From: Skermanella mucosa | Lineage (GTDB): Bacteria > Pseudomonadota > Alphaproteobacteria > Azospirillales > Azospirillaceae | Direction of reading: 5' to 3' | DNA: 64,000 nt | NCBI RefSeq assembly: GCF_016765655.2 | Contig: NZ_CP086106.1 | Coordinates: 5,974,501 to 6,038,500, forward strand | Part shown: positions 893 to 49,550 of the stretch, piece after piece | Numbering within the stretch: position 1 is the first letter of the stretch | Layout: every line of letters starts with the position of its first letter | Position numbers and translations under genes: made by a program | Notes under the pieces: model-generated | Seen by the model: the letters and a program-made list of their open reading frames with translations, nothing else | Database searches by the model: none | Told to the model about the DNA's origin: nothing

Positions 893-1897
893 TCAATGAA
901 TACCCGGGCCATGTTCCACGAGGCGTATCCAGTCATTGCCGGCCAGCAGTACCGTGGCAGGGCCGACTTTTGCCACCAGCACCTCCACTTCGTCCTGCGG
1001 CGTCAAGCATAAGGCGGTTGACAGGGCATCGGCCGCTGTCGCACTCCCGATCACGACTGTGACGCTGGAGTATAGCGCTCCTCCCTTTCCTTTCCGGGGG
1101 TCGAGGATGTTGAGGTCGGCGCTTCCAGCCGATGTAGCAACCGCCCGGTTGATGACATCGAATTCCCGCAGCACATGGTCCGACTTACCGGGATCACGCA
1201 CGCCGATGCGCCACGGCCGGCCGTCCGGCTTGGGCCCCAGGGCTCTCATCTCGCCGAGGTCCAGCAGGACATGCTCGATGCCTCTGGCGCGGAGAAGCTC
1301 GGCCACCCGGTCGGTCACATAACCCTGGGCTATGCCGTTCAAGGTTACCCCCATGCCGGGCTGACCGAAGCGGATCCGCCGGGAAGTGATTTCGATCCGG
1401 TGATAATCGATTAAAGCCAATGCTGCCCGAAGATCCTCACGCCGAGGTACGGTCCCCGCCTCCCTGTGCGTCGCCAGCAATCGCCAGAGCGGCTGGACCG
1501 TCACGTCGAAACGTCCGTCGCTGAGGTCGCCGAATCGCGCCGCTTCGGTCAACAGCCGGCGCATATCCAGGCTGGGTCTGAGCAGTTCGCCGTCACGGTT
1601 CAGCCGGCACAGGGCAGAGCCCGGCCGGAACAGGCTGAACTCACTCTCAAGACGATCGATCTCGGTAAGACAGGCCCCGATGATCGACCGGGCCTCTGCA
1701 GGATCGGGATGGAAAAGGGTGATGTTCGCCACCGCCCCCAGGGCAGTGCCTGTCCATTCATGGCGCAGAATGCCGGCATCCGCACCGCTGGCGACAGACT
1801 GGGGAACAAGCAGGCAGCCGGCCGCGGCGCCGAGGAGCTGAAGAACACGGCGCCGTGGCATCACGTCCCCTCTGGTCGTGTCCGAAACCGGGGTCAT
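893..1897 (-). CDS. nirX: NirX/NosX-type FAD:protein FMN transferase (ApbE family)
   Basis: This 334-residue exported ApbE-family flavin transferase should attach FMN covalently to a threonine of its partner, here most likely the periplasmic flavin domain of NirI. The N-terminus carries a twin-arginine signal (RRRVLQLLGAAAG near residues 15-27), so it probably acts in the periplasm. The ApbE core follows, with family-typical stretches such as FSLFRPGSALCRLN and LNGIAQGYVTDRV. It overlaps the nirI stop by four bases (ATGA), showing translational coupling. A second copy, nosX at 24614-25636, belongs to the nos operon. The pairing of a NosR-like and a NosX-like gene divergent from nirS matches the nirIX arrangement described in Paracoccus, so I name it nirX rather than nosX. 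The start could also be the ATG 12 codons in. Confidence 0.85.
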   Translation of the reverse strand: MTPVSDTTRGDVMPRRRVLQLLGAAAGCLLVPQSVASGADAGILRHEWTGTALGAVANITLFHPDPAEARSIIGACLTEIDRLESEFSLFRPGSALCRLNRDGELLRPSLDMRRLLTEAARFGDLSDGRFDVTVQPLWRLLATHREAGTVPRREDLRAALALIDYHRIEITSRRIRFGQPGMGVTLNGIAQGYVTDRVAELLRARGIEHVLLDLGEMRALGPKPDGRPWRIGVRDPGKSDHVLREFDVINRAVATSAGSADLNILDPRKGKGGALYSSVTVVIGSATAADALSTALCLTPQDEVEVLVAKVGPATVLLAGNDWIRLVEHGPGIH

Positions 1898-4104
1898 GGC
1901 TTCACCTCCGCAGTATCCTGGGTCGCCTTTGCGGGATTTTCACCGGAAGCGACGCCGCGCGCCGCCCCGGCGCCTGCCCTGCTCTCGCGCCGTCTGCGCC
2001 GGATGATCATGGGCGGGCAAGTATGGGTGTCGTAGTAGAGGGTCTGGCATTTCAGGCAGTAGATGCATTCGTTGGGATTGATCTCCCCGGTCGGGTGGAT
2101 CGCCTCGACCGGGCAACGCTGCTCGCAGATCCGGCATTCCCGGCCGCACTGGGGATGCCGTTTCAGCCATCGGAACATGCGCAGCCGGGCCGGGATCGCC
2201 AGGGCAGCTCCGAGGGCGCAGAGATAGCGGCAGTAGAAGCGCTCGATGAACAGGCCGGCGGTCAGGAGGGCCACGGGATAAGCCACCCAAACCCAGTCGC
2301 GCATGAACCGCAGTGTGATCGCCGTCTTGAACGGCTCGACCTCCGCGTAGACGGCGGCACGCTCCATCGACGTGAGGGAGACGGCGAACAGCGAGATGAA
2401 CAGGATGTACTTGATCGGCCAGAGCCGCTCGTGCAGCCCGAAGGGAACCCGGACCTGCGGTACCCGCAGCGCCCGGGCCGCCCGGTTGGTCAGTTCCTGC
2501 AGCGCCCCGAACGGGCAGAGCCAGCCGCAGAACACGCCGCGCGCCCAGAACAGCAGCGCCACCGCGACGAAGCTCCAGAGGATAAACAGCAGCGGATCGA
2601 GCAGGAAGAACGTCCAGTCGAATTCGGTGCGCAGGGCATTGGTGAAGGTCAGGACATTGATCACCGACAGCTGGGCGTGGGCGTACCAGCCGATCCAGAC
2701 CAACGTGATCGTGAGCATCACGATGCGCAGGCGGTTCCACAGCAGCGGGCGCTTGGCGAGCGCGTCCTGGAATACCAGGATCCCGGTCAGCGTAACAAGA
2801 ATGGAGGCCAGGATCCCGATATCTCCCCGGCGGCTCCACCAGACCTCGCGCCAATCGACGCTGACCAAATCGGCCTGCGCCACTGTCGGCTGCGCTGGAG
2901 CCGGTAGATAGCGCGCAGGCAGATCATATGGCAGGTTGAACACCTCCAAGACGGTTCCACGATCGGGGGAGGTTCGAGTCACCAGCAGCTCAAGGCGCCA
3001 GGGGGCTGCGGGATCGAAGCCGCTGTCCTCGGGCATCACGAACAGGGCCGTTTCGCGGAACTCCGGCGCACCCTGCAGCGGCATTTTCTCGATGATGCGC
3101 TGCTGATCGGGAGACAGCGTGAAGGTCCTGCTGCCCTGGACGATCTGCAACCGCTCGAACACGCCACTCCGCCGGTACTCGGTTCCCTTGAAGGAATAGA
3201 GGCCGGTAGCACCGACGAAGATCAGGGAACTTCCGGCACCGAGATTGGTGATCAGGTCCGCGTAAACACGGTCGCCGAGGAGATTGCGACCGATGCGGGC
3301 CGGCGATGCCAGTCCGGCATAGAGCGTGATGAAGTTGCTCTCCGCCGGACCGTCCAGGCCGGGCAGGTTCTCGGCTCCCTGCCGGCGAAAGGCTTCACGC
3401 ACGACGCCGGTGGTGAGCGCCAGCTCGGCGATTGAGCCGTCGGTGCGCAGGTCGGCCCAGCTGGCCGATTGGAACTCATCCCGAAGCGCCGCCGCGGAAC
3501 CAGGTCTATGGTCCCCGAGCAGTCCGAGCGCGTCCGCCACGATGCGGCTCGTTCCGACGATCAGGCTGTTCAGCGTCAGGGACGTTACCGTGGCGCCGCT
3601 GATGCCATCGACTACCCGTGAGACGCTGTCCGATCCCGAGACGGAGCGGAGCTTGACCGCTTCCCGGATGTCCGCATTGCGGTACTGCGCCACGAAGGCT
3701 CGGAGGTGCTCGTCGGTGATTCCGAGGATCAGGATCGGCTCATGATGCTCGACCAGATGGGCTCCGACAATCCGCCCCTGCAGGTCGATCCCGATCGCGA
3801 CATTCATCGGCTTGGCCGAGTAGCCGGCACTGTCCATAATGTCGGCGCTGAAAAAGACATAACCCGCTATCGAGCCATTCCGGTAGGCCGGATACACAGG
3901 GATCTGCGGCATCCTTTCGCCGAAACCGTCCGCGTCGGCAAACACATGCACCAGTTCGCTCACGCGAGGTTCAGCCGCCTGGACAGCTGAACCGACAAAG
4001 ATAAACCCCAGAAGCAGAAGCAGCAGCGGGAGCGTGGATAGCAGCGGGAGCGTCCTCGCAATTGCGGATATCTGGAGCAAAGCAATACCGGCTTTCACGT
4101 TCAT
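1894..4104 (-). CDS. nirI: NirI, NosR-like membrane flavoprotein with polyferredoxin tail
   Basis: This 736-residue protein is a NosR/NirI-type membrane flavoprotein. It begins with a hydrophobic leader, followed by a periplasmic FMN-binding domain with the covalent-FMN motif DGISGATVTS. A transmembrane block (roughly residues 420-620) contains two CxxxCP-type signatures ([13 protein letters not shown] and CRYLCALGAAL). The cytoplasmic tail carries two 4Fe-4S motifs (CRICEQRCP and CIYCLKC). NirI is thought to support nirS expression or nitrite reductase function, as NosR does for N2O reductase. It is divergent from nirS, and the 184-base gap holds an FNR/Dnr-type palindrome that could serve both directions. 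The paralogue nosR is at 31310-33616. I saw no strong ribosome site before the ATG. Confidence 0.87.
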   Translation of the reverse strand: MNVKAGIALLQISAIARTLPLLSTLPLLLLLLGFIFVGSAVQAAEPRVSELVHVFADADGFGERMPQIPVYPAYRNGSIAGYVFFSADIMDSAGYSAKPMNVAIGIDLQGRIVGAHLVEHHEPILILGITDEHLRAFVAQYRNADIREAVKLRSVSGSDSVSRVVDGISGATVTSLTLNSLIVGTSRIVADALGLLGDHRPGSAAALRDEFQSASWADLRTDGSIAELALTTGVVREAFRRQGAENLPGLDGPAESNFITLYAGLASPARIGRNLLGDRVYADLITNLGAGSSLIFVGATGLYSFKGTEYRRSGVFERLQIVQGSRTFTLSPDQQRIIEKMPLQGAPEFRETALFVMPEDSGFDPAAPWRLELLVTRTSPDRGTVLEVFNLPYDLPARYLPAPAQPTVAQADLVSVDWREVWWSRRGDIGILASILVTLTGILVFQDALAKRPLLWNRLRIVMLTITLVWIGWYAHAQLSVINVLTFTNALRTEFDWTFFLLDPLLFILWSFVAVALLFWARGVFCGWLCPFGALQELTNRAARALRVPQVRVPFGLHERLWPIKYILFISLFAVSLTSMERAAVYAEVEPFKTAITLRFMRDWVWVAYPVALLTAGLFIERFYCRYLCALGAALAIPARLRMFRWLKRHPQCGRECRICEQRCPVEAIHPTGEINPNECIYCLKCQTLYYDTHTCPPMIIRRRRRESRAGAGAARGVASGENPAKATQDTAEVKP

Positions 4105-31309: not shown

Positions 31310-33616
31310 TTATTTTAGGGGGTCAGCGCCCCTCGCGGGAACCGCCTGCAGCCGGCCGTCCGGAAGGTCGGTGATTTCCGCCTTCCGGCCGCCCGACCGC
31401 ATCGTCGGAGATGACATTGCCTGGCGTTTCTCACGTTTGAGGCGCTTCTGGATCACCACCGGGCATTTATGATCATGGTGATAGAGCATCTGGCAGTGCA
31501 TGCAGTAGATGCACTCGTTGACATTGATGTGCCCTTCCGGGTGGATGGACTGGACCGGGCACTCGGTTGCGCATCGCTGGCAGGGGCTGCCGCATTCGCG
31601 ATAGCGGCGCAGCCAGTCGAACATGCGCAGGCGCGCGGGGATCGCCAGTGCGGCCCCGAGCGGGCACAGGTAGCGGCAGAAGAAGCGCTCGATGAACAGG
31701 TTCGCGACCAGCAGCGCGATTGCGAAGGTGACAAACGGCCACTCTCGCACGAAGCGCAGCACGATCGCCGTTTTGAACGGCTCCACCTCGGATACCTGCT
31801 CGGCGAGCGTGAGCGAGTAGAGCGACAGGCCGAACAGCGCCAGGAAAATGACGTACTTGATCGGCCACAGCCGCTCGTGCAGGCCCCACGGCACCCGGAT
31901 CTGAGGCACCCTGAAGAAGGTGCGCCCGATGCGGTTGGTCAATTCCTGCAGCGCCCCGAACGGGCAGAGCCAGCCGCAGAATGCGCCGCGCGCCCAGAAC
32001 AGCATCGCCGCGGCGACCGCGGTCCACAGGATGAAGACCAGTGGGGACAGCAGGAAATAGTCCCAGCTGAAGCCGGTGATCAGCGCATTCGTGAAGGTCA
32101 GGACGTTGACCACGGAAAGCTGCGCCGTCACCCACCAGCCGAGCCAGAGCAGCGTGAAGGACAGGAACGCCAACCGGACGCGGTCATACAGTTTGGGCCG
32201 CCTCACCAGCTGATGCTGGAAAAAGAAGATGCCGGTCAGGATGCCAAGCGACGTCCCGAGGATCGCGATATCGACAGTTGAGCTCCGCCAGATCCGTTGC
32301 CATAGGGGCTCCTCAGGGAGTCCTGCAGTCTCTATGTTGCGCGGACGTTCCTGAGCGGCTGTCCCTTCCGGAGATGAAATTTCCTCGGCGAGGACGTCCG
32401 GCGTGTCTGCCACCACGGCGCGCTGCTCGGTCCGGACATAACGCTCGGGAAGCTCGTAAGCGACATCGAAGGTCAGGAATGCCTTGTCCCGTGCGCCGAT
32501 GGAACGCTGAACCAGCAGCTGAAGACGCCACGATTCGACGGGGTTCAGTTCAGTCCCCTCCGGGACGGCAAAAATGGAGATTTCCCGGAAACGGGGGGCA
32601 CCGTCGGCGCCGAGCTGGTTGATCCGCTCGTGGTTGCGATCCCGGAAGCGGATCGTCTCCTGGTCCTGGATGATCTCTATCCGATCGAAGATACCGCCCC
32701 GGACGTAGCCTGATCCCTTGAAGCTGTAAGTGCCATTGCCGGCGACCAGGATTGCCTGCTGACCCGACTTGAGACGTTGCCGCAGACGGTCGTAAGCCGC
32801 CTCGCCCAGGAGTGAGCGTCCGATCGTCGGCACGCTCACCGGGGCCGTGTAGAGATCGATGAAGGTGTCGTCCGCCTGGCCCGGCTCCGGGCGCGCGGCC
32901 GCGGCCTCGTTGCCGGATCGAACGAAGGCTTCGTTGATGTCGCCGACGGTCAGGTGAAGGCGGCGGATCGAGCCGTCCCCGACCAGGCTTTCCCAGTCGC
33001 GGTTTTCCGCTGCAGTCATGTCGATGGTTCGCATGGCCGGCGGAATGGCGGCTGTGACCTCCGGCTGCGCACTGCCAAGGCCGCGCATCTGGGCGACACG
33101 GCCGGCGGAGCGCATGATGCTGTCGCCCATCACCATCACGGTGACAGTGGCGCCGCTCACGATGTCAACCGACGTTCCAGACTCGGTCACGGAAGCGGGA
33201 CGCAGCACGTTCCGGCCGACATATCCTCCGATGAAAGCGGTGATCTTCTCCTCGGGTATGCCGATCAGGACGATCGGCTCCTTGTGCTCGACAAGCCTGG
33301 CCCCCGCGATCGTGCCGTCCAGCGCGAGGCCGACGACGATGTGGATCGGCTTGCCCGAGTAACCGACGGCGTTGACGAAGTCGGAGTTCAGAAAGGCGTA
33401 GCCGAGCAGACGGTCACGCTGGTAGGCCGGCGCCACGGGCGGCGATCCCTGCAGCGGACCGAACCGATCGGCCTCGGGAAAAACCTGTGCCGGTTCCACC
33501 ATCCCGAGGAAGTTTGCCAAGCCGGCCGCCTGCTGCGCCGATGGCGGTGTCGGCGATAGGCAGACCGCGGCGATCACCGCTGACATGAACAGGAGAAACC
33601 TGATTGCCTTCGTCAT
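31310..33616 (-). CDS. nosR: NosR, membrane flavoprotein for N2O reductase
   Basis: This 768-residue NosR has a signal peptide, a periplasmic FMN-binding domain with the covalent-FMN motif [14 protein letters not shown], transmembrane helices with [13 protein letters not shown] and [11 protein letters not shown], and a C-terminal pair of 4Fe-4S motifs ([22 protein letters not shown]). It supports nos expression and electron flow to NosZ. It is a clear paralogue of NirI at 1894-4104. Compared with NirI, its linker before the helices is longer (about residues 395-440). An FNR-type box lies 61-74 bases upstream. Confidence 0.95.
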
Positions 33617-36097: not shown

Positions 36098-37496
36098 GAG
36101 CTATGGGGGAAACTGGGTGATGACGAGGTGAGGAAGGTGGCGTAACGAGGTAGGTGCTTGACGCCTGCCAGAACCTCCACGAGGGAGCGCTACGCCATGA
36201 ACGAAGATACCAGCATTGTCCGGCTTCGCCAGCCCGAAGAGATCGATGATCCCCTGACGGCCCTTCTCCGATCGGGAGCCCGCCAGTTGTTGGAGCAGGC
36301 CATCGAAGCCGAGGTGGCGGCTTTCCTGGCTGCCAGCAAAGACCTGAAGCTGGCCGACGGCCGGGACCGGTTGGTCCGGCATGGCCATGGACCGGAGCGC
36401 ATGATCCAGACCGGGATTGGGCCGGTCGAGGTCCAGCGGATCAAGGTCCGTGATCGCGCTCCCGGTCCGGCAGCCGAGCGCATCCGGTTCAGCTCAGCCT
36501 TGCTGCCGCGCTGGGCGCGCCGGACGACCAGTCTCGACGCCCTGCTGCCAATCCTGTATCTGCGCGGCGTTTCAGCCGGTGATTTCCAGGAGGCGCTGAG
36601 CGTTCTGCTCGGCAAGGACGCGCCCAACCTGTCACCGGCGGTCATCGCGCGGCTGAAGGAGAGCTGGGCGGACGACTACGCGCGCTGGCAGCGGCGGGAC
36701 CTGTCGGCCCGGCGCTACGTCTATGTCTGGGCCGACGGCGTCTACCTCCAGGCCCGCATGGAGCCTGCCGCCGAGTGCATGCTGGTGATGATCGGCGCCA
36801 CGCCGGAGGGTAAAAAGGAACTGCTCGGCTTCCAGGTCGGCGTCCGCGAAAGCGCCCAGAGCTGGCGCGAACTGCTGATCGACCTGAAGGCCCGCGGGCT
36901 GGGAATCGCCCCGGAACTGGCGGTCGCCGATGGTGCTTTGGGCTTCTGGAAGGCGCTCGACGAGGTCTTCCCCGGCACGCGTCATCAGCGCTGCTGGTTT
37001 CATAAAAGTTCTAATGTTCTCAACAAGGTGGCGAAATCGCTCCAGCCCGCGGTCAAGCAGGACCTGCGGGAGATCTGGATGGCGCCCGACCTCAAGGCGG
37101 CGGAGCATGCCCTTGATACCTTCGAGAAGAAGTACGGCGCCAAGTACTCCGGTGCCGTCGAATGCCTGACCAAAGATCGTGATGCCCTGCTGGCCTTCTA
37201 CAGCTTCCCGGCCGAGCATTGGGATCACGTGCGGACCACAAACCCTATAGAAAGCGTCTTCGCCACAGTCCGGCACCGGACGGTCCGCACCAAGGGGGCG
37301 CTTTCCCAGGACACTGCCAAGCTCATGGTCTTCAAGCTGATCTCGGCAGCATCCAGAACTTGGCGGCGACTTCAGGGCGAAAACCAGTTGCCCAAGATCA
37401 TCCAAGGCGTCAAATTCCGCGACGGCATCGAGGTCAGCGTGCCGACATCACACAGCGCCGCCTGAACACCTCGTCACCCAAATTCCGCTATAGCTC
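36098..37496 (+). mobile_element. IS256-family element, copy 1
   Basis: The element begins GAGCTATGGGGGAAACTGGG and ends with the imperfect reverse complement (reading inward, GAGCTATAGCGGAATTTGGG). It is flanked by a perfect 9-bp duplication AGGATCAAG (36089-36097 and 37497-37505). One transposase gene fills it, and it looks complete. Confidence 0.9.
36197..37465 (+). CDS. IS256-family (Mutator-type) transposase
   Basis: This 422-residue DDE transposase has an N-terminal DNA-binding region (LLRSGARQLLEQAIEAEVAAFLAA, typical of IS256), WADGVYLQARM with the first catalytic Asp, LAVADGALGFWKAL with the second, the CWFHKSSNVLNKV Cys-His region, and TTNPIESVFATVRHRTVRTKG carrying the late Glu. 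The frame is open from 36158 but I start at the ATG of MNEDTSIVRL, preceded by GAGGGAG. It is intact and probably functional. Confidence 0.93.
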   Translation: MNEDTSIVRLRQPEEIDDPLTALLRSGARQLLEQAIEAEVAAFLAASKDLKLADGRDRLVRHGHGPERMIQTGIGPVEVQRIKVRDRAPGPAAERIRFSSALLPRWARRTTSLDALLPILYLRGVSAGDFQEALSVLLGKDAPNLSPAVIARLKESWADDYARWQRRDLSARRYVYVWADGVYLQARMEPAAECMLVMIGATPEGKKELLGFQVGVRESAQSWRELLIDLKARGLGIAPELAVADGALGFWKALDEVFPGTRHQRCWFHKSSNVLNKVAKSLQPAVKQDLREIWMAPDLKAAEHALDTFEKKYGAKYSGAVECLTKDRDALLAFYSFPAEHWDHVRTTNPIESVFATVRHRTVRTKGALSQDTAKLMVFKLISAASRTWRRLQGENQLPKIIQGVKFRDGIEVSVPTSHSAA

Positions 37497-37890: not shown

Positions 37891-38388
37891 TCACGGCAGC
37901 AGGTGTACCGGGGGTTTACGGGACGCCACCGCGACGATACCGGGATCCAGGTTCGGCGGAACCGGCAGAGGCTCCTCCGGGTCGGGCTCGGGAATGGGTT
38001 GTTCGGGCTCAGGTTTGGACTCGGGTTCGTCCTCCGGGGGCAGCCCTGATGCCCTGATGATCGCCGTGGACGCCTCTTTATCGATCTCGGCGAGAGCCTC
38101 AGCGGCTTCGGTAACACCCACCCTGGTCCGCTCGTGAGCCGTCGGCCATCTCGCAGATTTGAGGTCGCTCTCGCAGAGCGGGACCTCCGGCCGCTTCCAC
38201 GGAGGGATACGCGTCGGGCTATATTCAAACATTTCGATGATTTCCTTTTCCGCGCAGCCTCTCTGCCGCACCAGGTCGGCGAGCGCCCAGTCCTCGATGA
38301 TTTGGTCGCCGGGCTGCTTGCGGCAGTCATGCTCTTCAAAATCATGAAGCAGATCTTCGCTGATATCGATGTGGCGTTCGTCCGTCAT
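37891..38388 (-). CDS. Hypothetical protein with acidic N-terminus and Pro/Glu-rich tail
   Basis: This 165-residue protein is unrecognised. Residues 1-60 are acidic (MTDERHIDISEDLLHDFEEHD) with two Cys. The middle has PPWKRPEVPLCESDLKSARWP. The last 60 residues are a low-complexity Pro/Glu run (EDEPESKPEPEQPIPEPDPEEPLPVP) ending in a short basic piece. The ATG at 38388 follows a strong GGAGGT. It is the last gene of the minus-strand accessory operon that starts with the AAA+ ATPase. The tail looks intrinsically disordered. Confidence 0.6.
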   Translation of the reverse strand: MTDERHIDISEDLLHDFEEHDCRKQPGDQIIEDWALADLVRQRGCAEKEIIEMFEYSPTRIPPWKRPEVPLCESDLKSARWPTAHERTRVGVTEAAEALAEIDKEASTAIIRASGLPPEDEPESKPEPEQPIPEPDPEEPLPVPPNLDPGIVAVASRKPPVHLLP

Positions 38389-38547
38389 TTCGACCTCCAC
38401 CCCCTGAACATGCCCCCTATAAGACACATTAGACAGAACAATGATCCTTGAAGGGGTCAGGCGGATCACCAAATTGCTCGCACGATCCGCTCAGTCACGT
38501 AGATCCGGGACTGATCTTCCAGGATAGTCTGATAGCGACGATCATGA

Positions 38548-38862
38548 TCAGACCCACCCCTCTGTGTCCGCCACGCCTTCATCAAGTCGTTCCTGAGTTT
38601 CACTCTCCGACGGATCGTCCCGCAGCAGGAGCGACTGTCGCCTGCATTCGTCAGACAGACGAGCAGATGCTTCCAGCTCGACACTCACGACGCCCGCCAC
38701 CGCCCGCAGCGCCGGGATCAATGCCGGATCCGCTTGACCACCAACGATGCCAGCGCGGGGAAGAACGCGGCTGATCCTCAGCCCCGTCGCCCGCAGATCC
38801 TATGCGATCTGGTTGATCCGCCCTAGCGCGGCTTCTTCGATGATCACGATGAGGGACTGCAC
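38548..38862 (-). pseudogene. Small alpha/beta protein gene with in-frame TAG
   Basis: From a GTG at 38862 (GGAGAG six bases upstream) the frame reads MQSLIVIIEEAALGRINQIA, then TAG at 38800-38802, then continues for 83 more sense codons: DLRATGLRISRVLPRAGIVGG and so on, ending DEGVADTEGWV. The pattern (beta strand, helix, a VLPRAGIV-like strand, then ALRAVAGVVSVELE) resembles small proteins often labelled ketohydroxyglutarate aldolase-like, with an inhibitor-I9-like fold. A single stop breaks an otherwise normal gene, just after the exonuclease gene. Confidence 0.55.
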
Positions 38863-38887
38863 TTAAGCTCTCCGAAACGGGTGGGAG

Positions 38888-39547
38888 TTAACATCTCCCC
38901 TTGGGATCGGTCAGCGCAAGAATGACATGTACCCATCTGGCCGAGTCTGACCATGCCCGGTGACGAACCGGATGCACGCGTTCCGCATCGTCGAGCGCCT
39001 CGGCAATAGCAGCGTCATTGCCGCCGGCGAGCAGCTCGACGATGTTCCAAACGCTCCAAACCCTGAATCCAAGCGCTTCCTGGCCTGCCGCACGGAACAG
39101 CGCCGTCAGCCAGACTTCGTCTGCCGGTGAGTCCGTGAGGACCTCGTGACCTGCAATTGCTCCAACCAGTTCATGATAAACCTGGACGGAGGGAAGGCCG
39201 CTCTTCTCAATTTCGTCGAGCGAAATGCCGTGGATTGCTTCCGCCGCAGGATCCCACCGCCAGGAGCGCCATTCCTCGGACGGCCGGATCAGCCAGGTCC
39301 TGGTTTCGCCGGTCTCAACGAACGTGATCCCGATCTCGATCGGAAACGTGTTCGGCGGCAGGCCGGAGGCTTCGACATCGAGCACGACAAGAGGTCGAAC
39401 TTCCTCCTGCAAGAAAGGCGAGCAGTTCTCGCTCAGCTTGGACGGACTGTTCCCGTGCCGCCACCAGCCGACGATGCACACAGCAATGATCGTCGCCAGC
39501 GTCGCGACGATCACTTCTCTTAATAGATCTTCAGAGAAAAGCACCAT
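38888..39547 (-). CDS. Membrane-anchored DEDDh-type 3'-5' exonuclease-like protein
   Basis: This 219-residue protein has an N-terminal hydrophobic helix (VIVATLATIIAVCIVGWW, about 11-28) and then an RNase-T/DnaQ-like fold. Motif I is VVLDVEASGLPPNTFPIEIG (D and E of DEDD), a helix-capping AAEAIHGIS follows, motif II is probably within TDSPADEVWL, and motif III is HRAWSDSARW (H and last D). The order and spacing fit a DEDDh exonuclease tied to the inner membrane. It lies 79 bases downstream of the DUF2283-like gene in the accessory operon. The substrate is unknown. Confidence 0.7.
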   Translation of the reverse strand: MVLFSEDLLREVIVATLATIIAVCIVGWWRHGNSPSKLSENCSPFLQEEVRPLVVLDVEASGLPPNTFPIEIGITFVETGETRTWLIRPSEEWRSWRWDPAAEAIHGISLDEIEKSGLPSVQVYHELVGAIAGHEVLTDSPADEVWLTALFRAAGQEALGFRVWSVWNIVELLAGGNDAAIAEALDDAERVHPVRHRAWSDSARWVHVILALTDPKGRC

Positions 39548-39626
39548 TATCGTATTTCTGACTTTACAAAGGGAAATCCCATTGGGAATTTACGGCATCG
39601 AGCAAAGCCTCAAGATATGATCCTGC

Positions 39627-39992
39627 CTACCAGTCGAAATCATGTTCGGAGCCGAGCTCGCCATGGCTGTCGCGCATCACGTCGGCAACCGGGTCCGTCT
39701 TCTGAACGTCCATCGGTTTCATTCCGAGGAGCTCCCTCAAGACCCAGTACGTCGGAGCATCTTCCTGCCGCACATTGAGCGACTGTTGGAACATCGCCAG
39801 GGCTTCTCCGATAATCTCCGGCTGCTTGGAGGCGTCCAGGATAGTCCAGCCTACTACCCGGCCCATCTCGTCAAGATCGATGGAATGATTGCCCTGGGAA
39901 TGGCATATCAGCGTGTAGCTCCGCACGACCGGCCTGATCCGAATTTTCAGGATGTCGAGCGAGACATCATATTGAACGCAGTCATTACTCAT
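39627..39992 (-). CDS. DUF2283-like small protein
   Basis: This 121-residue protein begins MSNDCVQYDVSLDILKIRIR and contains SIDLDEMGRVVGWTILDASKQP, the strand pattern and conserved glycine/DAS of DUF2283. The C-terminal half (EALAMFQQSLNVRQEDAPTYWVLRELLG) is an extra helical region. DUF2283 proteins are small and often sit in toxin-antitoxin-like or phage contexts, but the function is unknown. The ATG overlaps the previous gene by eight bases, so it is translationally coupled. Confidence 0.65.
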   Translation of the reverse strand: MSNDCVQYDVSLDILKIRIRPVVRSYTLICHSQGNHSIDLDEMGRVVGWTILDASKQPEIIGEALAMFQQSLNVRQEDAPTYWVLRELLGMKPMDVQKTDPVADVMRDSHGELGSEHDFDW

Positions 39993-40380
39993 CCCGCACA
40001 GTCCTTCTCCTGAGTGCCCGAAGCTCATCCTCCGTCGCGGCGCAGCAGGGATGGGCAAGGGCGACGATCTCGATGAGCGAAGTCACGGCTTCAGCCGGCG
40101 ATCCGAATACCGTATTCCCGGTGATGCACTGGATCATCACGGCGTCGATGGCTGCCGGGTGCATGTAATCGTCGGTTGGCCAAGGCGTCATGATCCGGTA
40201 GCGTGCCCCATACACCGTCTCGATCATTCGACCCTCTATGCGGGCGATCCGGGATGACATGTGCCACTCACCGTCAGGTACGCCGTCGATGCCGTAACCC
40301 CGCCCCACGACCACGAAGCCGATCGTCGGGACACCGATCATGCGATATTCGTCGATGCGCGGTACATCACCATCAATCAT
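39985..40380 (-). CDS. Hypothetical protein, tandem paralogue B
   Basis: This 131-residue protein is unrecognised but clearly related to its upstream neighbour (40373-40750). Shared features are IDEYRxIxxP at the start, YGIDGVPDGEWHM (YGLEGVPDGIWHI in the other), a central YRIMTPWP/YRTLEPCP, and a C-terminal TEDELRALRRR (TEEELAALRRR). It has a Cys pair in AHPCCAATE. No known domain is visible. It overlaps both neighbouring genes by eight bases, implying tight co-production. Confidence 0.65.
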   Translation of the reverse strand: MIDGDVPRIDEYRMIGVPTIGFVVVGRGYGIDGVPDGEWHMSSRIARIEGRMIETVYGARYRIMTPWPTDDYMHPAAIDAVMIQCITGNTVFGSPAEAVTSLIEIVALAHPCCAATEDELRALRRRTVRDE

Positions 40381-40750
40381 CGCTCGCCGCCCTGCGCCTC
40401 AAAGCAGCCAGCTCCTCTTCGGTCGCAATGTATATCGGGTTTGTCAGTGAGACGGTATCGATGATCGTCGCGATGCTGTGCGCTGCGGATCCGAACCCGG
40501 TCTGCTTGAACAGGTCCTCGGCGGCTTCGGCGAGCGCATCGTCGGCGTGGAACCGATTGCTCGGGCAAGGCTCGAGCGTTCGATAAACCTCGCCGGTCAC
40601 CGTGTGGATATGGGTATCAGTCAACCCGGAGAGCAGCGGGGTTATGTGCCATATGCCGTCAGGCACGCCCTCCAGGCCGTAGATGCGACCGAGAGCGGCG
40701 CAGCCCGTCAGCGGAATATGGATGATGCGGTACTCGTCGATCACTGCCAT
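40373..40750 (-). CDS. Hypothetical protein, tandem paralogue A
   Basis: This 125-residue protein is unrecognised. It is a paralogue of the next gene, with YGLEGVPDGIWHITPLL near residues 24-40 and a helical C-terminus TEEELAALRRRAASDD. The frame is open far upstream in the ATPase gene, but the ATG at 40750, eight bases after GGAGGGA, is the best start and gives MAVIDEYRIIHIPLTG. It begins 19 bases after the AAA+ ATPase stop. The conserved GVPDGxWH in both copies is a candidate active or binding site. Confidence 0.65.
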   Translation of the reverse strand: MAVIDEYRIIHIPLTGCAALGRIYGLEGVPDGIWHITPLLSGLTDTHIHTVTGEVYRTLEPCPSNRFHADDALAEAAEDLFKQTGFGSAAHSIATIIDTVSLTNPIYIATEEELAALRRRAASDD

Positions 40751-40769
40751 TTCCATTCCCTCCGCACGG

Positions 40770-42281
40770 TCAATTGCGCGTAAGCTTCTCCGCCCGCGTG
40801 GCGGCAATGAGGGCGCGCCGGTGCAGTGCTGCGAGTTGCCGGGCATTGAGTTCGCCGGCGGCAAAACCCGAACGCATCGCCTCGACGACCTCTCCCGGCA
40901 GCTCCGGCAGATCCGAGACTGCAACGCCGAACTCGTCGGCGACATCCTCGGTCAGTCCGGCCATGATCACGCCGAAATGCTCCGGCCGCGGGCGCGGCAC
41001 CTGAAGAACGCGGCAGCGGGCTCGAAGCAGCGGATCGACGCGGTCGGCATGGTTGGCCGTCAGGACCCAGGACACCGCAGACAGGTCCGCCGGCATTTGC
41101 AGGCATTCGTCGTAGTATTGCCGCGCCGTCGCGGGTTCCACCATTGTCAGAAGCACGTCGGAAATCCGGCCGTTGTGCCGGCTGTCTGCCGCCTTGTCGA
41201 TCTCCTCGACGCAGAGCAAGGGGTTTGCGACGCCATGCGTCCACATGACCATCAGGGGAAGGCACGGATGAGCCGAGGCCCACCCCCTGGAAGTTCCGGC
41301 AAGAGCGCGGCTGTCGGAAGCACCTCCGGCACTGACCTGGGTGAACGGCACTCCGGCATAGCCGGCGATGGAGCGCGCAAGCCTCGACTTGCCTACGCCG
41401 GAGTGCCCGGTAAGAAGAAGCGGCGGCAGGGCGAAATACGGACGGCCGAGACGTGCGGCCAGCGCCAACTCGCCCGTGATAATGTCGATGATCTCTATGC
41501 ACCACGGAAACGATGATACCAGATCGCTGCGGTACTCGTCCGGGTCAGGCATAGCGGCAAGGTAAGTCAGACCGGACAGCGCCTCGTAGCCCTCGAATTC
41601 CTTCCATGTCTTCTTTGCCCCGGCCTCGTCGGCCCGCAATGAAGGGCGCAGCACGATCATCGACGGCGGCGGCTTCGGCGGGGCGAGCAGCAGCGAATCG
41701 ATCACCTCGGCCGGTTCGGGCGGCAACCAGCCGGCATCCTCCAGCTTCGCGACCACGGCCGCGTTCTCGGGATTCAGCGGATCCGCGATGGCCTGTATGA
41801 GGTCCAGCTCAATGGCGACCCTGGCCGGCGTATCCGCCCGGAGAATCAAAGCGAACAGCGTGCGGAACCGTCCGATTCGGATGCGGAGATCATACTCGTT
41901 CACGGTACAGGGATGGGCCAGCCACCAATCGAGGTGCGCGCATGCGAGACGCAGTTCGACGATATCCTCGTCCTTGTTTTCCAGGAAATACAGAAAAAGA
42001 CATGTTGCCCGGAGATCGCGCACGAGATCGCCCCCGGACTGGCCGAACAGGTCGCCGACCTTGCCCGCGATCCGCAGAAGCGGCAGATCACCATGCTCAT
42101 CCGCCAGCCTGCTCCGTCCGAGATCCAGGACGTCCGGGAAGTCCGGCACATCCTCGACTGTTATCCTGATCGCGGCGCGCGCTCCGGCCAAATGCTCGGG
42201 CGTCATCTCTGCCGGGGGAAGTCGCCAAACGGACAGGAATGCGCGCACATCTTCCGGCGATAGAGCGTCGTCCCCGGACAT
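40770..42281 (-). CDS. AAA+ ATPase of the Lon/MoxR-like type, no protease domain
   Basis: This 503-residue protein has a helical N-terminal domain (about 1-215) and a AAA+ domain from about residue 225. Walker A is LLLTGHSGVGKSRLARSIAG, Walker B is NPLLCVEEIDKAA, sensor 1 is VSWVLTANHADRVDPLLRARC, and a C-terminal helical lid ends in LNARQLAALHRRALIAATRAEK. The core resembles Lon ATPase, but there is no Ser-Lys protease domain. It may remodel a partner such as the tandem paralogues encoded next. GGGGGA before the ATG at 42281 supports this start. It is the first gene of the accessory operon. Confidence 0.75.
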   Translation of the reverse strand: MSGDDALSPEDVRAFLSVWRLPPAEMTPEHLAGARAAIRITVEDVPDFPDVLDLGRSRLADEHGDLPLLRIAGKVGDLFGQSGGDLVRDLRATCLFLYFLENKDEDIVELRLACAHLDWWLAHPCTVNEYDLRIRIGRFRTLFALILRADTPARVAIELDLIQAIADPLNPENAAVVAKLEDAGWLPPEPAEVIDSLLLAPPKPPPSMIVLRPSLRADEAGAKKTWKEFEGYEALSGLTYLAAMPDPDEYRSDLVSSFPWCIEIIDIITGELALAARLGRPYFALPPLLLTGHSGVGKSRLARSIAGYAGVPFTQVSAGGASDSRALAGTSRGWASAHPCLPLMVMWTHGVANPLLCVEEIDKAADSRHNGRISDVLLTMVEPATARQYYDECLQMPADLSAVSWVLTANHADRVDPLLRARCRVLQVPRPRPEHFGVIMAGLTEDVADEFGVAVSDLPELPGEVVEAMRSGFAAGELNARQLAALHRRALIAATRAEKLTRN

Positions 42282-43436: not shown

Positions 43437-45196
43437 GGTCCATCCGCATTCCCGGTGCAGCAGTATCGGGCTGGAGCACGACCATTTCAGGCCGCTTCGA
43501 GAACACGGTGGCGCAGTAGATCGAACTTGGCACGACCGGACATGGTCCGCTTGATCGTCTTCAGGTAGCTGATCTGCCCCTCGACAGGACCGGTACTCCA
43601 CGGCAGCGACAGAGCTGCCCGGATTGCCGCAAGATCGCGGACAAGACCATCGGCGAACCCGGCCAGGGCAGTGTCCTTCGCCGCTGCCAGCCAGGAATCC
43701 AGCCGCTCCGCTTGTTGGTATCGCACCATGCCGTTGAACGCGCGCGCCAGTGCGATGATCCGGCCAAGTTCCGGCGACGCGGCAATCAGGGCTTCGACAA
43801 ACCGCTGCTCCGTCGTGTCGATCGTCTCGTAATCGGCCACCACGAACCACGCGGCCCGGCGTTTCGACGGCATCTTCCACAGCCTCCCGCAAGGCTCCGT
43901 TCCGGATGATGACGGGTCGGCACCCCGGAGGCGTCTGACCCAGCGCTGCACTGTCCGGAGCTGCCCTCGAAAGCCGCGCCTGCGGATTTCTTCCCACAGC
44001 TGTGCCGCGTTGCGGCAGCCCTCGTTCCAGCGTTGGTGCAGATACTCGGCGTGAACATCGACCGCACTGCCGCGGGACCGCTGGTCCCAGGTCGGCAGCT
44101 GACCCGATCGCAGCCATCGGCGCACCGTCTTCGGATTGAGGCCGAGCGTTCGGGCGATGCGTTTGATCGGCCAGTTCCTCTGATGCAGCGCCATCACCTC
44201 GTCAAAGCGAGCTCGCCGGATGGCATGCCGATCCGGGTGCGACGGCTCGGGAACGGGCATGACGGACGGCTCGGACGCCGACGGTGTCGATGGCGGCACG
44301 TCCGAAGCCTTGCTTGTTGCGGTCGCTGCCGCCGTTGCCGCACGCAGGTCACGATGATGCCGATCGAGAACTCGGGCCACGGCATCGTTGAGGTTGCGCA
44401 GGAGATGCCACCGATCGCTGACCTGGAGGGCATCCGGAGCGCCGGTTCGGATGCCGTCGGCATAGCTGCCGGCGCGATCACGGGCAACGATCTCGGTGCC
44501 GGGATGATCCTTCAGCCAGGCCGCGACCGTGTCACCTTGGCGGTCGGGCAGCAGGTCGATCGGTCGGTTGCGCTCCAGATCGACGATGATCGTGCCGTAG
44601 CGCTGGCCCCGCCGCCACGCCCAGTCATCGATGCCGATGACGCGTGCCGGCGGGGCTGGTTCGATCGGCACGGCCCGGATCAGGCGTAGCAGCGTGTCGC
44701 CGCTGACCGGCATGGCGAGCCGATCCGCCAGGCGGGCGCCCGACTCCCCTCCCGCATGCAGGGCGATGCGGCGTTGCGCCTCGGCGAGGCGGACGGTCCG
44801 CCGAACCCTCGGTAGGACCACCTCCGGCAGGCGCTCGGCGAAGATCCGGCGCGGGCACCTGGGGGTCGAGCAGCGAAAGCGACGGACTCGGAGATCGAGC
44901 CGACCGATCCTCCCCTGCCAGGGGAGATCCCCAAGGTGCCGGGTGTAGCGGCTGTGGACGCGATGCGAGCGGCGCTTGCACAAGGGACAGGGCGCCGTGG
45001 CGGCGCGAGCGCGGACGGCGAAGACGACACGATCCGGGTGGACGACGACCCGCTCAACCGCGAGACCGGCGGGGAGCAGGGACAACAGCGAATTGGACAC
45101 GGAGAAGGCGGCACTCTCGGAGAAAAAGCGTTTCTCCTCATATAATTACTTCCACCATTCGGCGCACTCGCCCTGCACCGGGAATGCGGATGGACC
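43437..45196 (-). mobile_element. ISL3-family element
   Basis: Ends begin GGTCCATCCGCATTCCCGGT and are matched by the reverse complement at 45196, extending over about 24 bp. One transposase gene is inside. The expected 8-bp target duplication is not seen (left flank GAGAAAGT, right flank CCATCCTG), suggesting a rearrangement after insertion. Confidence 0.88.
43487..45100 (-). CDS. ISL3-family transposase
   Basis: This 537-residue transposase has an N-terminal zinc-finger domain (CPLCKRRSHRVHSRYTRHLGDLPW, then FRCSTPRCPRRIFAE), the DDE core with VIGIDDWAWRRGQRYGTIIVDL and EIVARDRAGSYADG, DALQVSDRWHLLRNL, a second helix-turn-helix (IKRIARTLGLNPKTVRRWL), and the terminal STGPVEGQISYLKTIKRTMSGRA with the catalytic Glu. 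It is full length and uninterrupted. Confidence 0.93.
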   Translation of the reverse strand: MSNSLLSLLPAGLAVERVVVHPDRVVFAVRARAATAPCPLCKRRSHRVHSRYTRHLGDLPWQGRIGRLDLRVRRFRCSTPRCPRRIFAERLPEVVLPRVRRTVRLAEAQRRIALHAGGESGARLADRLAMPVSGDTLLRLIRAVPIEPAPPARVIGIDDWAWRRGQRYGTIIVDLERNRPIDLLPDRQGDTVAAWLKDHPGTEIVARDRAGSYADGIRTGAPDALQVSDRWHLLRNLNDAVARVLDRHHRDLRAATAAATATSKASDVPPSTPSASEPSVMPVPEPSHPDRHAIRRARFDEVMALHQRNWPIKRIARTLGLNPKTVRRWLRSGQLPTWDQRSRGSAVDVHAEYLHQRWNEGCRNAAQLWEEIRRRGFRGQLRTVQRWVRRLRGADPSSSGTEPCGRLWKMPSKRRAAWFVVADYETIDTTEQRFVEALIAASPELGRIIALARAFNGMVRYQQAERLDSWLAAAKDTALAGFADGLVRDLAAIRAALSLPWSTGPVEGQISYLKTIKRTMSGRAKFDLLRHRVLEAA

Positions 45197-48380: not shown

Positions 48381-49550
48381 ATGCCCCGCGCCTACAAGGG
48401 CCCGCGTCTCGAACTTTACGGCCCAGACACCCGGTTCGGTGCCAAAGCCAAACGTGGCTTCACCGAATACCGTTTCTACATCGTCTGGTCAGACGCCGGC
48501 AGAAAGTGCGAGCGCAGCACGGGCACGTCAGACATCGGCGTTGCTGAAAGGTGTTTCCGCACCTTCCTCGAAGCACGCGCCGACGCTGCCAGAGTCGCCA
48601 ACCAAATTGATGGCCCCCGCCGTCCTGACCAAATGAGTGTTGCCGATGTGCTCGACATTTACGGCCGCGAGCATGCTCCGCAAACGGCGGCCCCAGCCCG
48701 CATCGGCTATGCAATCGACGCGCTTCTGCCATTCTGGGCGGAGCTAGCGGTCAGCGACATCAAAGGTGAGACCGTGCGCCGGTACATGCAATTCCGCCGC
48801 GACCGGTTTGCGGCGCGTGAGGCCGAACGTGTCACCGAGCAGACCGCTCGCGGTAGGCTCCCACCACCTGCCCGCACCCTTTCGGACAATACTGTACGGC
48901 GCGAGCTAGTGATGCTTAGTGCCGCCTTGAAGTATTGCAATGAAGAAGGTTATCTGATCAACCCGCCGACGGTCTGGCTGCCGGAGAAGGGCGTGCCACG
49001 TGACAGACATCTATCCCGATCGGACATAGCTCGGCTTCTGTGGGCAGCTCGGAAATCCGCGCGCAGCCGCACGCATCTGACGCTCTATATCTTAGTCGCG
49101 TTCTACACGGGTGCACGCCGGAGTGCGATCTTGGAACTACAGTGGCAGCCGAACTCCTTAGGCGGGTGGGTAGACTTGGAGCGCGGCATAATTGACTTCC
49201 AAGGGAGCGCGCGGCGCACCAAGAAGCGCCGGAGTGCGATCCCAATTCCGGGTCGGCTGATGACGTTTCTGAAGCTGGCGCGGCGTAGGACCATGCGATA
49301 CGTGATCGAGTTTGAAGGTCGTCCGGTGCGCGATCCGAAAAAGGCTTTGGCGACGGCCGGCCGTGCCGCCGGGCTCGGAAACGTGTTCAGCCACCTGCTG
49401 AAGCATTCGGCCATCACGTACCTTTTGGGCGCTGGAGTGCCGCTGTGGGAAGTCGCCGGCTGGACCGGGACCAGCGAGGAGACAATCAGGCGCGTCTACG
49501 GCCATCACTCGCCAGACTATCTGTCGAGTGTAGTGAAGGCGCTAAGATAG
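48381..49550 (+). CDS. Tyrosine recombinase/integrase of the genomic island
   Basis: This 389-residue phage-type integrase has an N-terminal SAM-like core-binding region (about 85-195) and a catalytic domain with FYTGARRSAILELQW (first Arg), a Lys in TKKRRSAIPIP, HLLKHSAITYLLGAGV (HxxK/R variant), a conserved Trp/His in WEVAGWTG, and the final Tyr in RRVYGHHSP. It should integrate the island into the tRNA-Arg(CCG) 3' end found 120 bases downstream. The ATG overlaps the 3' part of the broken excisionase gene. The gene is intact. Confidence 0.92.
   Translation: MPRAYKGPRLELYGPDTRFGAKAKRGFTEYRFYIVWSDAGRKCERSTGTSDIGVAERCFRTFLEARADAARVANQIDGPRRPDQMSVADVLDIYGREHAPQTAAPARIGYAIDALLPFWAELAVSDIKGETVRRYMQFRRDRFAAREAERVTEQTARGRLPPPARTLSDNTVRRELVMLSAALKYCNEEGYLINPPTVWLPEKGVPRDRHLSRSDIARLLWAARKSARSRTHLTLYILVAFYTGARRSAILELQWQPNSLGGWVDLERGIIDFQGSARRTKKRRSAIPIPGRLMTFLKLARRRTMRYVIEFEGRPVRDPKKALATAGRAAGLGNVFSHLLKHSAITYLLGAGVPLWEVAGWTGTSEETIRRVYGHHSPDYLSSVVKALR

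Follow-up and report, generated by a model that had tools for sequence, protein, structure and literature searches.

Why are a Lon-type ATPase lacking a protease domain, two related small proteins and a predicted exonuclease encoded side by side in the 7.84 Mb genome of Skermanella mucosa? The genes concerned lie at positions 37891-42281 of a stretch of 64,000 nucleotides, referred to here as the window (contig NZ_CP086106.1, positions 5,974,501 to 6,038,500 of the forward strand), and an earlier note, made from the sequence alone, had read seven of them as a single unit with a possible role in defence or DNA handling. The recurrent part of this arrangement, found in several families, is the ATPase (AAA) together with proteins of the DUF6634 type (PF20339), with an enzyme slot that varies or is empty. 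A metallophosphoesterase as the third gene, and an exonuclease beside genes resembling the two small paralogues of the window (parA and parB), are less firmly established.

Pairing of the ATPase with DUF6634 proteins

The clearest evidence for this pairing comes from a single alphaproteobacterial family represented by 17 genomes (that of G418), in which PF20339 finds six DUF6634 genes in four genomes, at five loci. At all five, a distance of 11-79 bp separates the end of the nearest DUF6634 match from an AAA match downstream of it on the same strand, and these five are the only AAA loci remaining in the family once Lon-like matches are excluded (six matches of 75-79 bits in frames of 804-829 amino acids, taken as Lon on the basis of size and score); the AAA of one of them, in G118, is an N-terminal fragment with a stop. 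In G418, the order is DUF6634-DUF6634-AAA, with a 4-bp overlap. In G464, DUF6634, AAA and a metallophosphoesterase gene follow each other in a row, the DUF6634 domain being fused to a region whose weak similarity to ParA stays below the cut-off. Among 385 genomes of the class, DUF6634 exceeds the cut-off in four and AAA is found at E<=1e-20 in ten, G418 having both. Within the 82 genomes of the window's own family, the curated PF20339 model finds a gene over the cut-off in three, and two of these three genes are found downstream of an AAA match on the same strand, at distances of 432 bp (G005) and 438 bp (G022); the third (G026) is followed by a metallophosphoesterase gene, and by a second one recognised by eye, AAA being absent. 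In G361, AAA is followed by a DUF6634-like gene (7e-9) and then by two metallophosphoesterase genes on the opposite strand.

Similar arrangements are carried by plasmids, 11 of the 24 plasmid records with DUF6634 having been examined. The order metallophosphoesterase-AAA-DUF6634-metallophosphoesterase is present in plasmids of Paracoccus yeei, P. aminovorans and Ketogulonicigenium, and the AAA of all three was confirmed to be related to that of the window. In plasmids of Methylorubrum AM1 and Methylobacterium DM1 (Methylobacteriaceae), two matches to the DUF6634 model lie 1-2 kb downstream of AAA. The partners can also change: in Bradyrhizobium barranii, a metallophosphoesterase-DUF6634 pair adjoins a different, IetA-like AAA, and in Thalassobaculum a gene resembling RNase H/PolB exonucleases precedes two DUF6634 genes. 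G432 has two places of interest, one with weak DUF6634-like frames followed by metallophosphoesterase and AAA genes, the other with two weak DUF6634-like genes, AAA and a gene weakly similar to dual-specificity phosphatases; two of these weak DUF6634-like genes have no Pfam match. The earlier note had proposed a search for co-occurrence of the homologues, and neither homologues that never occur together nor a gene order unique to the window genome was found, so the module was not refuted by this search.

In three lineages, a small shared domain with the motif KEKxGxLR adjoins DUF6634-type genes or is fused to them (L038:7849-8556, L093:5572-6432 and L062:6962-7564; BLASTP 6e-15 and 2e-8).

A four-gene core with a separable exonuclease

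The operon is a real feature of the window, and its core also occurs outside the window genome. It begins with AAA (40770-42281), followed by parA (40373-40756), parB (39985-40380), a DUF2283-like gene (39627-39992) and the exonuclease gene (38888-39547), all on the minus strand. The close packing with 8-base overlaps previously described is correct for two junctions among these five genes (parA/parB and parB/DUF2283), the others being gaps of 13 bases (AAA to parA) and 79 bases (DUF2283 to exonuclease). Three other genomes of the genus are referred to here as G002, G003 and G004. G002 has two copies. The first covers the whole stretch, with identities to the window of 96% for AAA, 94% for parA, 98% for parB, 96% for the DUF2283-like protein and 98% for the exonuclease. 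The second, 270 kb away, consists of AAA-parA-parB-DUF2283 only (94, 87, 86 and 79% identity) and lacks the exonuclease gene and the two genes that follow it in the window, one MazE-like and one encoding a Pro/Glu-rich protein. Because this second copy carries AAA, parA, parB and the DUF2283-like gene alone, the core consists of these four genes, the exonuclease is separable from it and the earlier reading of all seven genes as one operon is rejected; the last two genes probably lie outside the module. G004 has retained AAA (83%), with a decayed parA. In G002, the second core copy is followed downstream, at a distance of about 1 kb, by a piece of a metallophosphoesterase gene (L037:11230-11490; E 2e-21).

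The ratios of non-synonymous to synonymous substitution rates (dN/dS) of the core genes are 0.15-0.22 for AAA, 0.15-0.28 for parA, 0.24-0.27 for parB (a range that omits the comparison of the window with the first G002 copy, in which only four changes give 0.97) and 0.26-0.32 for the DUF2283-like gene, which indicates purifying selection. The core is considered to be more than a chance grouping because it is found twice in G002 and has dN/dS values of 0.15-0.32. Relative to the first G002 copy, dS is 0.14 for AAA, 0.18 for parA, 0.07 for the DUF2283-like gene and about 0.01 for parB, the exonuclease gene and the Pro/Glu-rich gene, and this unevenness among genes suggests recombination between copies.

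The ATPase

The assignment of AAA (503 amino acids) as a Lon-like AAA+ ATPase without a protease, as in the earlier note, was borne out by profile and structure matches. The protein matches TIGR00763 (Lon; 7.6e-22) at model positions 356-496 of 795, a match that stops short of the C-terminal protease domain of Lon, and Lon structures match it solely within residues 266-497. Walker A (GHSGVGKS) and Walker B (VEEID) motifs can be recognised by eye. A structural model predicted from the single sequence was useless, with a predicted local distance difference test score (pLDDT) of 35. In 50,697 phage records, no match to AAA rose above the level of Lon (nine records, 67-77 bits, covering at most 43% of the query). 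In viral contigs, at least one AAA locus was present among the 600 pattern matches listed, and it had no match to DUF6634, the parA family, metallophosphoesterases or the exonuclease at E<=0.1. A metallophosphoesterase of Methylorubrum CM4 (L090:6424-7698) has an LWRT-like N-terminal segment resembling, by eye, the N-termini of AAA proteins.

Probable remote relationship of parA and parB to DUF6634

ParA (127 amino acids) and parB (131 amino acids) share 39% identity and are paralogues, as the earlier note had suggested. Neither has a Pfam match at E<=1, and PF20339 finds no match in the window genome (G000) at E<=0.01. A profile of the parA family finds matches in five of the 82 genomes of the window's family, including G063, G067 (members par1 and par2) and G080, in which the parA-like gene stands alone. 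Elsewhere the family is sparse. Only the window's own genome was matched among the 385 class genomes (with at most ten candidates scored per genome); a scan of genome contigs yielded one locus, in Roseomonas genomospecies 6 ATCC 49961; 173 stretches of viral contigs fitted a pattern and contained no relatives; and a plasmid search gave no match for parA or G067 par1, and four weak records for G067 par2 (best 3e-4).

Fifteen DUF6634 proteins, all from outside the parA family, gave a model that matches G067 par2 and the members in G063 and G080 at between 1e-10 and 6e-10, and profile-profile comparison (hhalign) of the parA family with DUF6634 gives a probability of 94.4% (E 8e-8) when both G067 sequences are included. 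With these bridging members taken into account, parA and parB appear to be remote relatives of DUF6634 through a transitive link, and not members by the Pfam cut-off. The two groups have in common a central motif pattern, a frequent occurrence as paired genes and a position beside AAA, but parA and parB fall below Pfam detection and AAA comes first in the window.

Structure prediction for parA from a four-sequence alignment gave five models, the best with a pLDDT of 72 and the others 40-65, residues 1-60 reaching 76-91 in blocks. The predicted fold is a six-strand domain followed by C-terminal helices. It has no match in the PDB (best E 0.43), and the model resembles small viral proteins of no known function, three of them at E<=0.001. 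The best of these putative matches is unnamed (5.8e-4, template modelling score 0.82 on the target, root-mean-square deviation 1.1); the third is from Rhizobium phage RHph_Y1_20, and the next from Caulobacter phage phiCbK (1.1e-3). A search of phages with the DUF6634 protein of G418 gave nothing at E<=0.01.

The exonuclease and the DUF2283-like protein

The candidate effector of the window is a protein of 219 amino acids that is probably a DEDDh 3'-5' exonuclease-like nuclease, in agreement with the earlier note. It matches the PADLOC DEDDh model, a generic CRISPR-associated one, at 2.9e-8, and the residues of the D-x-E, D and H-x4-D motifs (D57, E59, D139, H196 and D201) are kept in all six aligned sequences. 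Unlike DEDDh exonucleases with the Pfam RNase_T domain, it has no RNase_T match (a G063 homologue scores 20.7 bits against a cut-off of 24), it has an extra hydrophobic N-terminus and it is linked to DUF6634-like genes. This N-terminal stretch, read as a membrane helix by eye, is missing from the G063 and G067 homologues. In G063, the parA-like and exonuclease genes are adjacent (their longest frames overlap, and a later start codon would leave 17 bases between them), and in G067 one gene separates them; at each locus, a second exonuclease copy is found less than 5 kb away. No AAA match was found at these two loci, and they count as a single independent case because they are related to each other. 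The ATPase-paralogue-nuclease module of the earlier note is supported in part, by AAA-DUF6634 operons in other families and by the paralogue-exonuclease pairing of G063 and G067, but not as a whole beyond the window genome and G002.

The product of the fourth core gene (121 amino acids) was correctly described as similar to DUF2283 (PF10049), but it remains below the gathering score of 23 bits (18.3 bits in the window and 20.8 bits in the second G002 copy). The gene stays with the core in both G002 copies.

Neighbouring genes

The gene noted earlier as stop-interrupted (38548-38862) is indeed interrupted in the window; its intact copy in G002 (L036:8012-8326) has an end that matches the MazE-like family PF11455 (31.6 bits against a cut-off of 22), the window gene being a MazE-like relic. 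No partner toxin was recognised by eye. The Pro/Glu-rich protein (37891-38388) has no Pfam, PADLOC or NCBIfam match at E<=1, and only the first G002 copy has such a gene among the 16 loci searched. Transposase-like genes lie on both sides of the module (36158-37465 and 43487-45100), and are presumably of the IS256 and ISL3 types. A possible phage-type integrase reading frame was noticed by eye at 48381-49550. The region from 1894 to 35169, with nos-like and cytochrome genes, is one that we take to be of denitrification type, with what are presumably NosR-like genes at 1894-4104 and 31310-33616. No defence genes were noticed in the window, in which the defence scan covered the module genes.

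Proposed function and alternatives

The association of AAA with DUF6634 is observed directly; from it we infer a function, which may include defence. The window would contain a divergent member of a mobile module made up of a protease-less Lon-type AAA+ protein, one or two DUF6634-type proteins and an exchangeable hydrolase, often a metallophosphoesterase and here a DEDDh exonuclease. The DUF6634 pair might sense or bind a component of an invader, a role proposed from the similarity of its predicted domain to small viral proteins, several of which come from named phages. AAA, through its variable N-terminus, would then remodel the DUF6634-invader complex using ATP hydrolysis, and this remodelling would free or recruit the hydrolase, which would attack nucleic acid or a nucleotide signal and halt the invading phage or plasmid. 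A regulatory role for the DUF2283-like protein is a guess. That the locus is a mobile conflict module, perhaps anti-phage, with an exchangeable hydrolase under the control of the DUF6634 pair and AAA, is a reading to which we would give an even chance. It is favoured because of the patchy distribution, the location on plasmids and islands, the exchangeable hydrolase, the variable ATPase N-terminus and the neighbours. Among these neighbours, SIR2 and HerA genes occur in two places: in G118 they adjoin DUF6634, and in G063 they are found 2-6 kb away from the pair of paralogue and exonuclease genes. G470 has PDC-M48B and G464 a TIR protein similar to ThsB, and helicases of the UvrD type, matched by models for GajB and RTasHel, are present in G418 and G470, although such helicase matches may be generic. 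A more specific version is possible, if somewhat unlikely: an undescribed immune module in which the paired DUF6634 proteins would be decoys or sensors akin to a small phage-protein fold, read by the protease-less Lon-type AAA+ protein with a target-selecting variable N-terminus, which would unleash an interchangeable metallophosphoesterase, exonuclease or phosphatase.

Several results weigh against the conflict module. Among 14 AAA-anchored genome loci, a DUF6634-like gene reaches E<=0.05 at only three, two of which depend on weak matches; the remaining 11 have none. In a set of 18 AAA loci, DUF6634 is found at two, the main metallophosphoesterase type at four others and neither at 12, one of these 12 having a second metallophosphoesterase type about 5 kb away. 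From the other side, AAA lies within 3.2 kb at only four of 14 DUF6634 loci, and two of these four (G005 and G022) were first noticed from the AAA side, the PF20339 search also finding both; this count leaves out the near-duplicates L094, L095 and L097 (L076 being kept), L087 (the same record as L074) and the weak L089. Around the same 14 loci, the main metallophosphoesterase type occurs six times within 3.2 kb and three times beyond it, the two lengths of DNA compared being equal, and a model of the window-type exonuclease finds nothing. The complete window set, including the exonuclease, was observed in the window genome and G002 only, and the dN/dS of the exonuclease (0.81) is based on seven changes only and is uninformative. 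The N-terminal regions of AAA relatives vary widely, and, by eye, the glutamate expected in Walker B is missing from a relative in Azospirillum ramasamyi. The link between parA and DUF6634 is transitive: the PF20339 gathering score is not reached by parA or parB (17.7 bits against 27 for the G080 relative), and the hhalign probability falls to 24% (E 8e-4) when the bridging G067 par2 is left out. Finally, the scan of defence neighbours covered ten proteins picked by eye, with no random control, eight of which matched at E<=1e-5.

An unlikely alternative is an accessory module for DNA metabolism or maintenance of plasmids and islands, in which AAA would remodel replication or transfer complexes, the DUF6634 proteins would be adaptors and the nuclease or phosphoesterase would process the element's DNA or RNA. 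On plasmids, transfer or replication genes are found near some AAA relatives, and the weak ParA-like region fused to one DUF6634 protein and the predicted resemblance to small phage proteins are also consistent with such a role; however, the presence of the module is patchy (the three of 82 and four of 385 genomes given above), its enzyme is exchangeable and some loci adjoin defence genes, in the uncontrolled scan described.

A toxin-antitoxin or stress-response locus, with a nuclease or phosphoesterase toxin held by DUF6634 and DUF2283 proteins and released or disposed of by AAA, seems quite improbable. The genes are small, tandem and overlapping, a MazE-like antitoxin relic adjoins them and the DUF2283-like gene sits between the paralogue pair and the nuclease gene, but the DUF2283 model matches only the window and G002, plus a weak match (0.0043) in G003, and the second core copy has neither the MazE-like gene nor the exonuclease gene. 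That cargo genes came together by chance between insertion sequences, as suggested by the presumed transposase frames on both flanks and by the uneven dS of pieces that recombine, is highly improbable. For AAA-parA-parB it is contradicted by the recurrence of AAA and DUF6634 in several families, and the core is under purifying selection; the exonuclease may have come to this position by chance.

Relationship to known systems and significance

The conflict module proposed here differs from the systems it most resembles. It has the Lon-type AAA+ domain in common with Lon protease, but the window AAA lacks the protease domain and relatives differ in their N-terminal regions. IetAS is an AAA-plus-effector defence system of similar general layout. 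The AAA of Paracoccus aminovorans weakly matches PDC-M37B (5.2e-8) of PADLOC PDC-M37, an AAA-plus-effector candidate, but the window AAA has no such match at E<=1 and the small proteins belong to a different family. A PADLOC scan of the seven window proteins revealed no described system (the best matches being DEDDh at 2.9e-8 and TRIP13 at 0.0021), and the PADLOC models did not name the AAA/small-protein/hydrolase module, even with nine proteins of relatives included. The literature searched, which held few subscription journals and no bioRxiv preprints, yielded no mention of DUF6634 or PF20339, nothing on DUF2283 with a toxin, one paper for PDC-M37 and, with combined terms, nothing on this gene set. 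The recurrent AAA/small-protein/hydrolase module is apparently undescribed. DUF6634 gains a genomic context and a testable role, and, if the module is a defence system, a protease-less Lon-type ATPase would join the immune repertoire, linked to a fold that is predicted to be shared with phage proteins.

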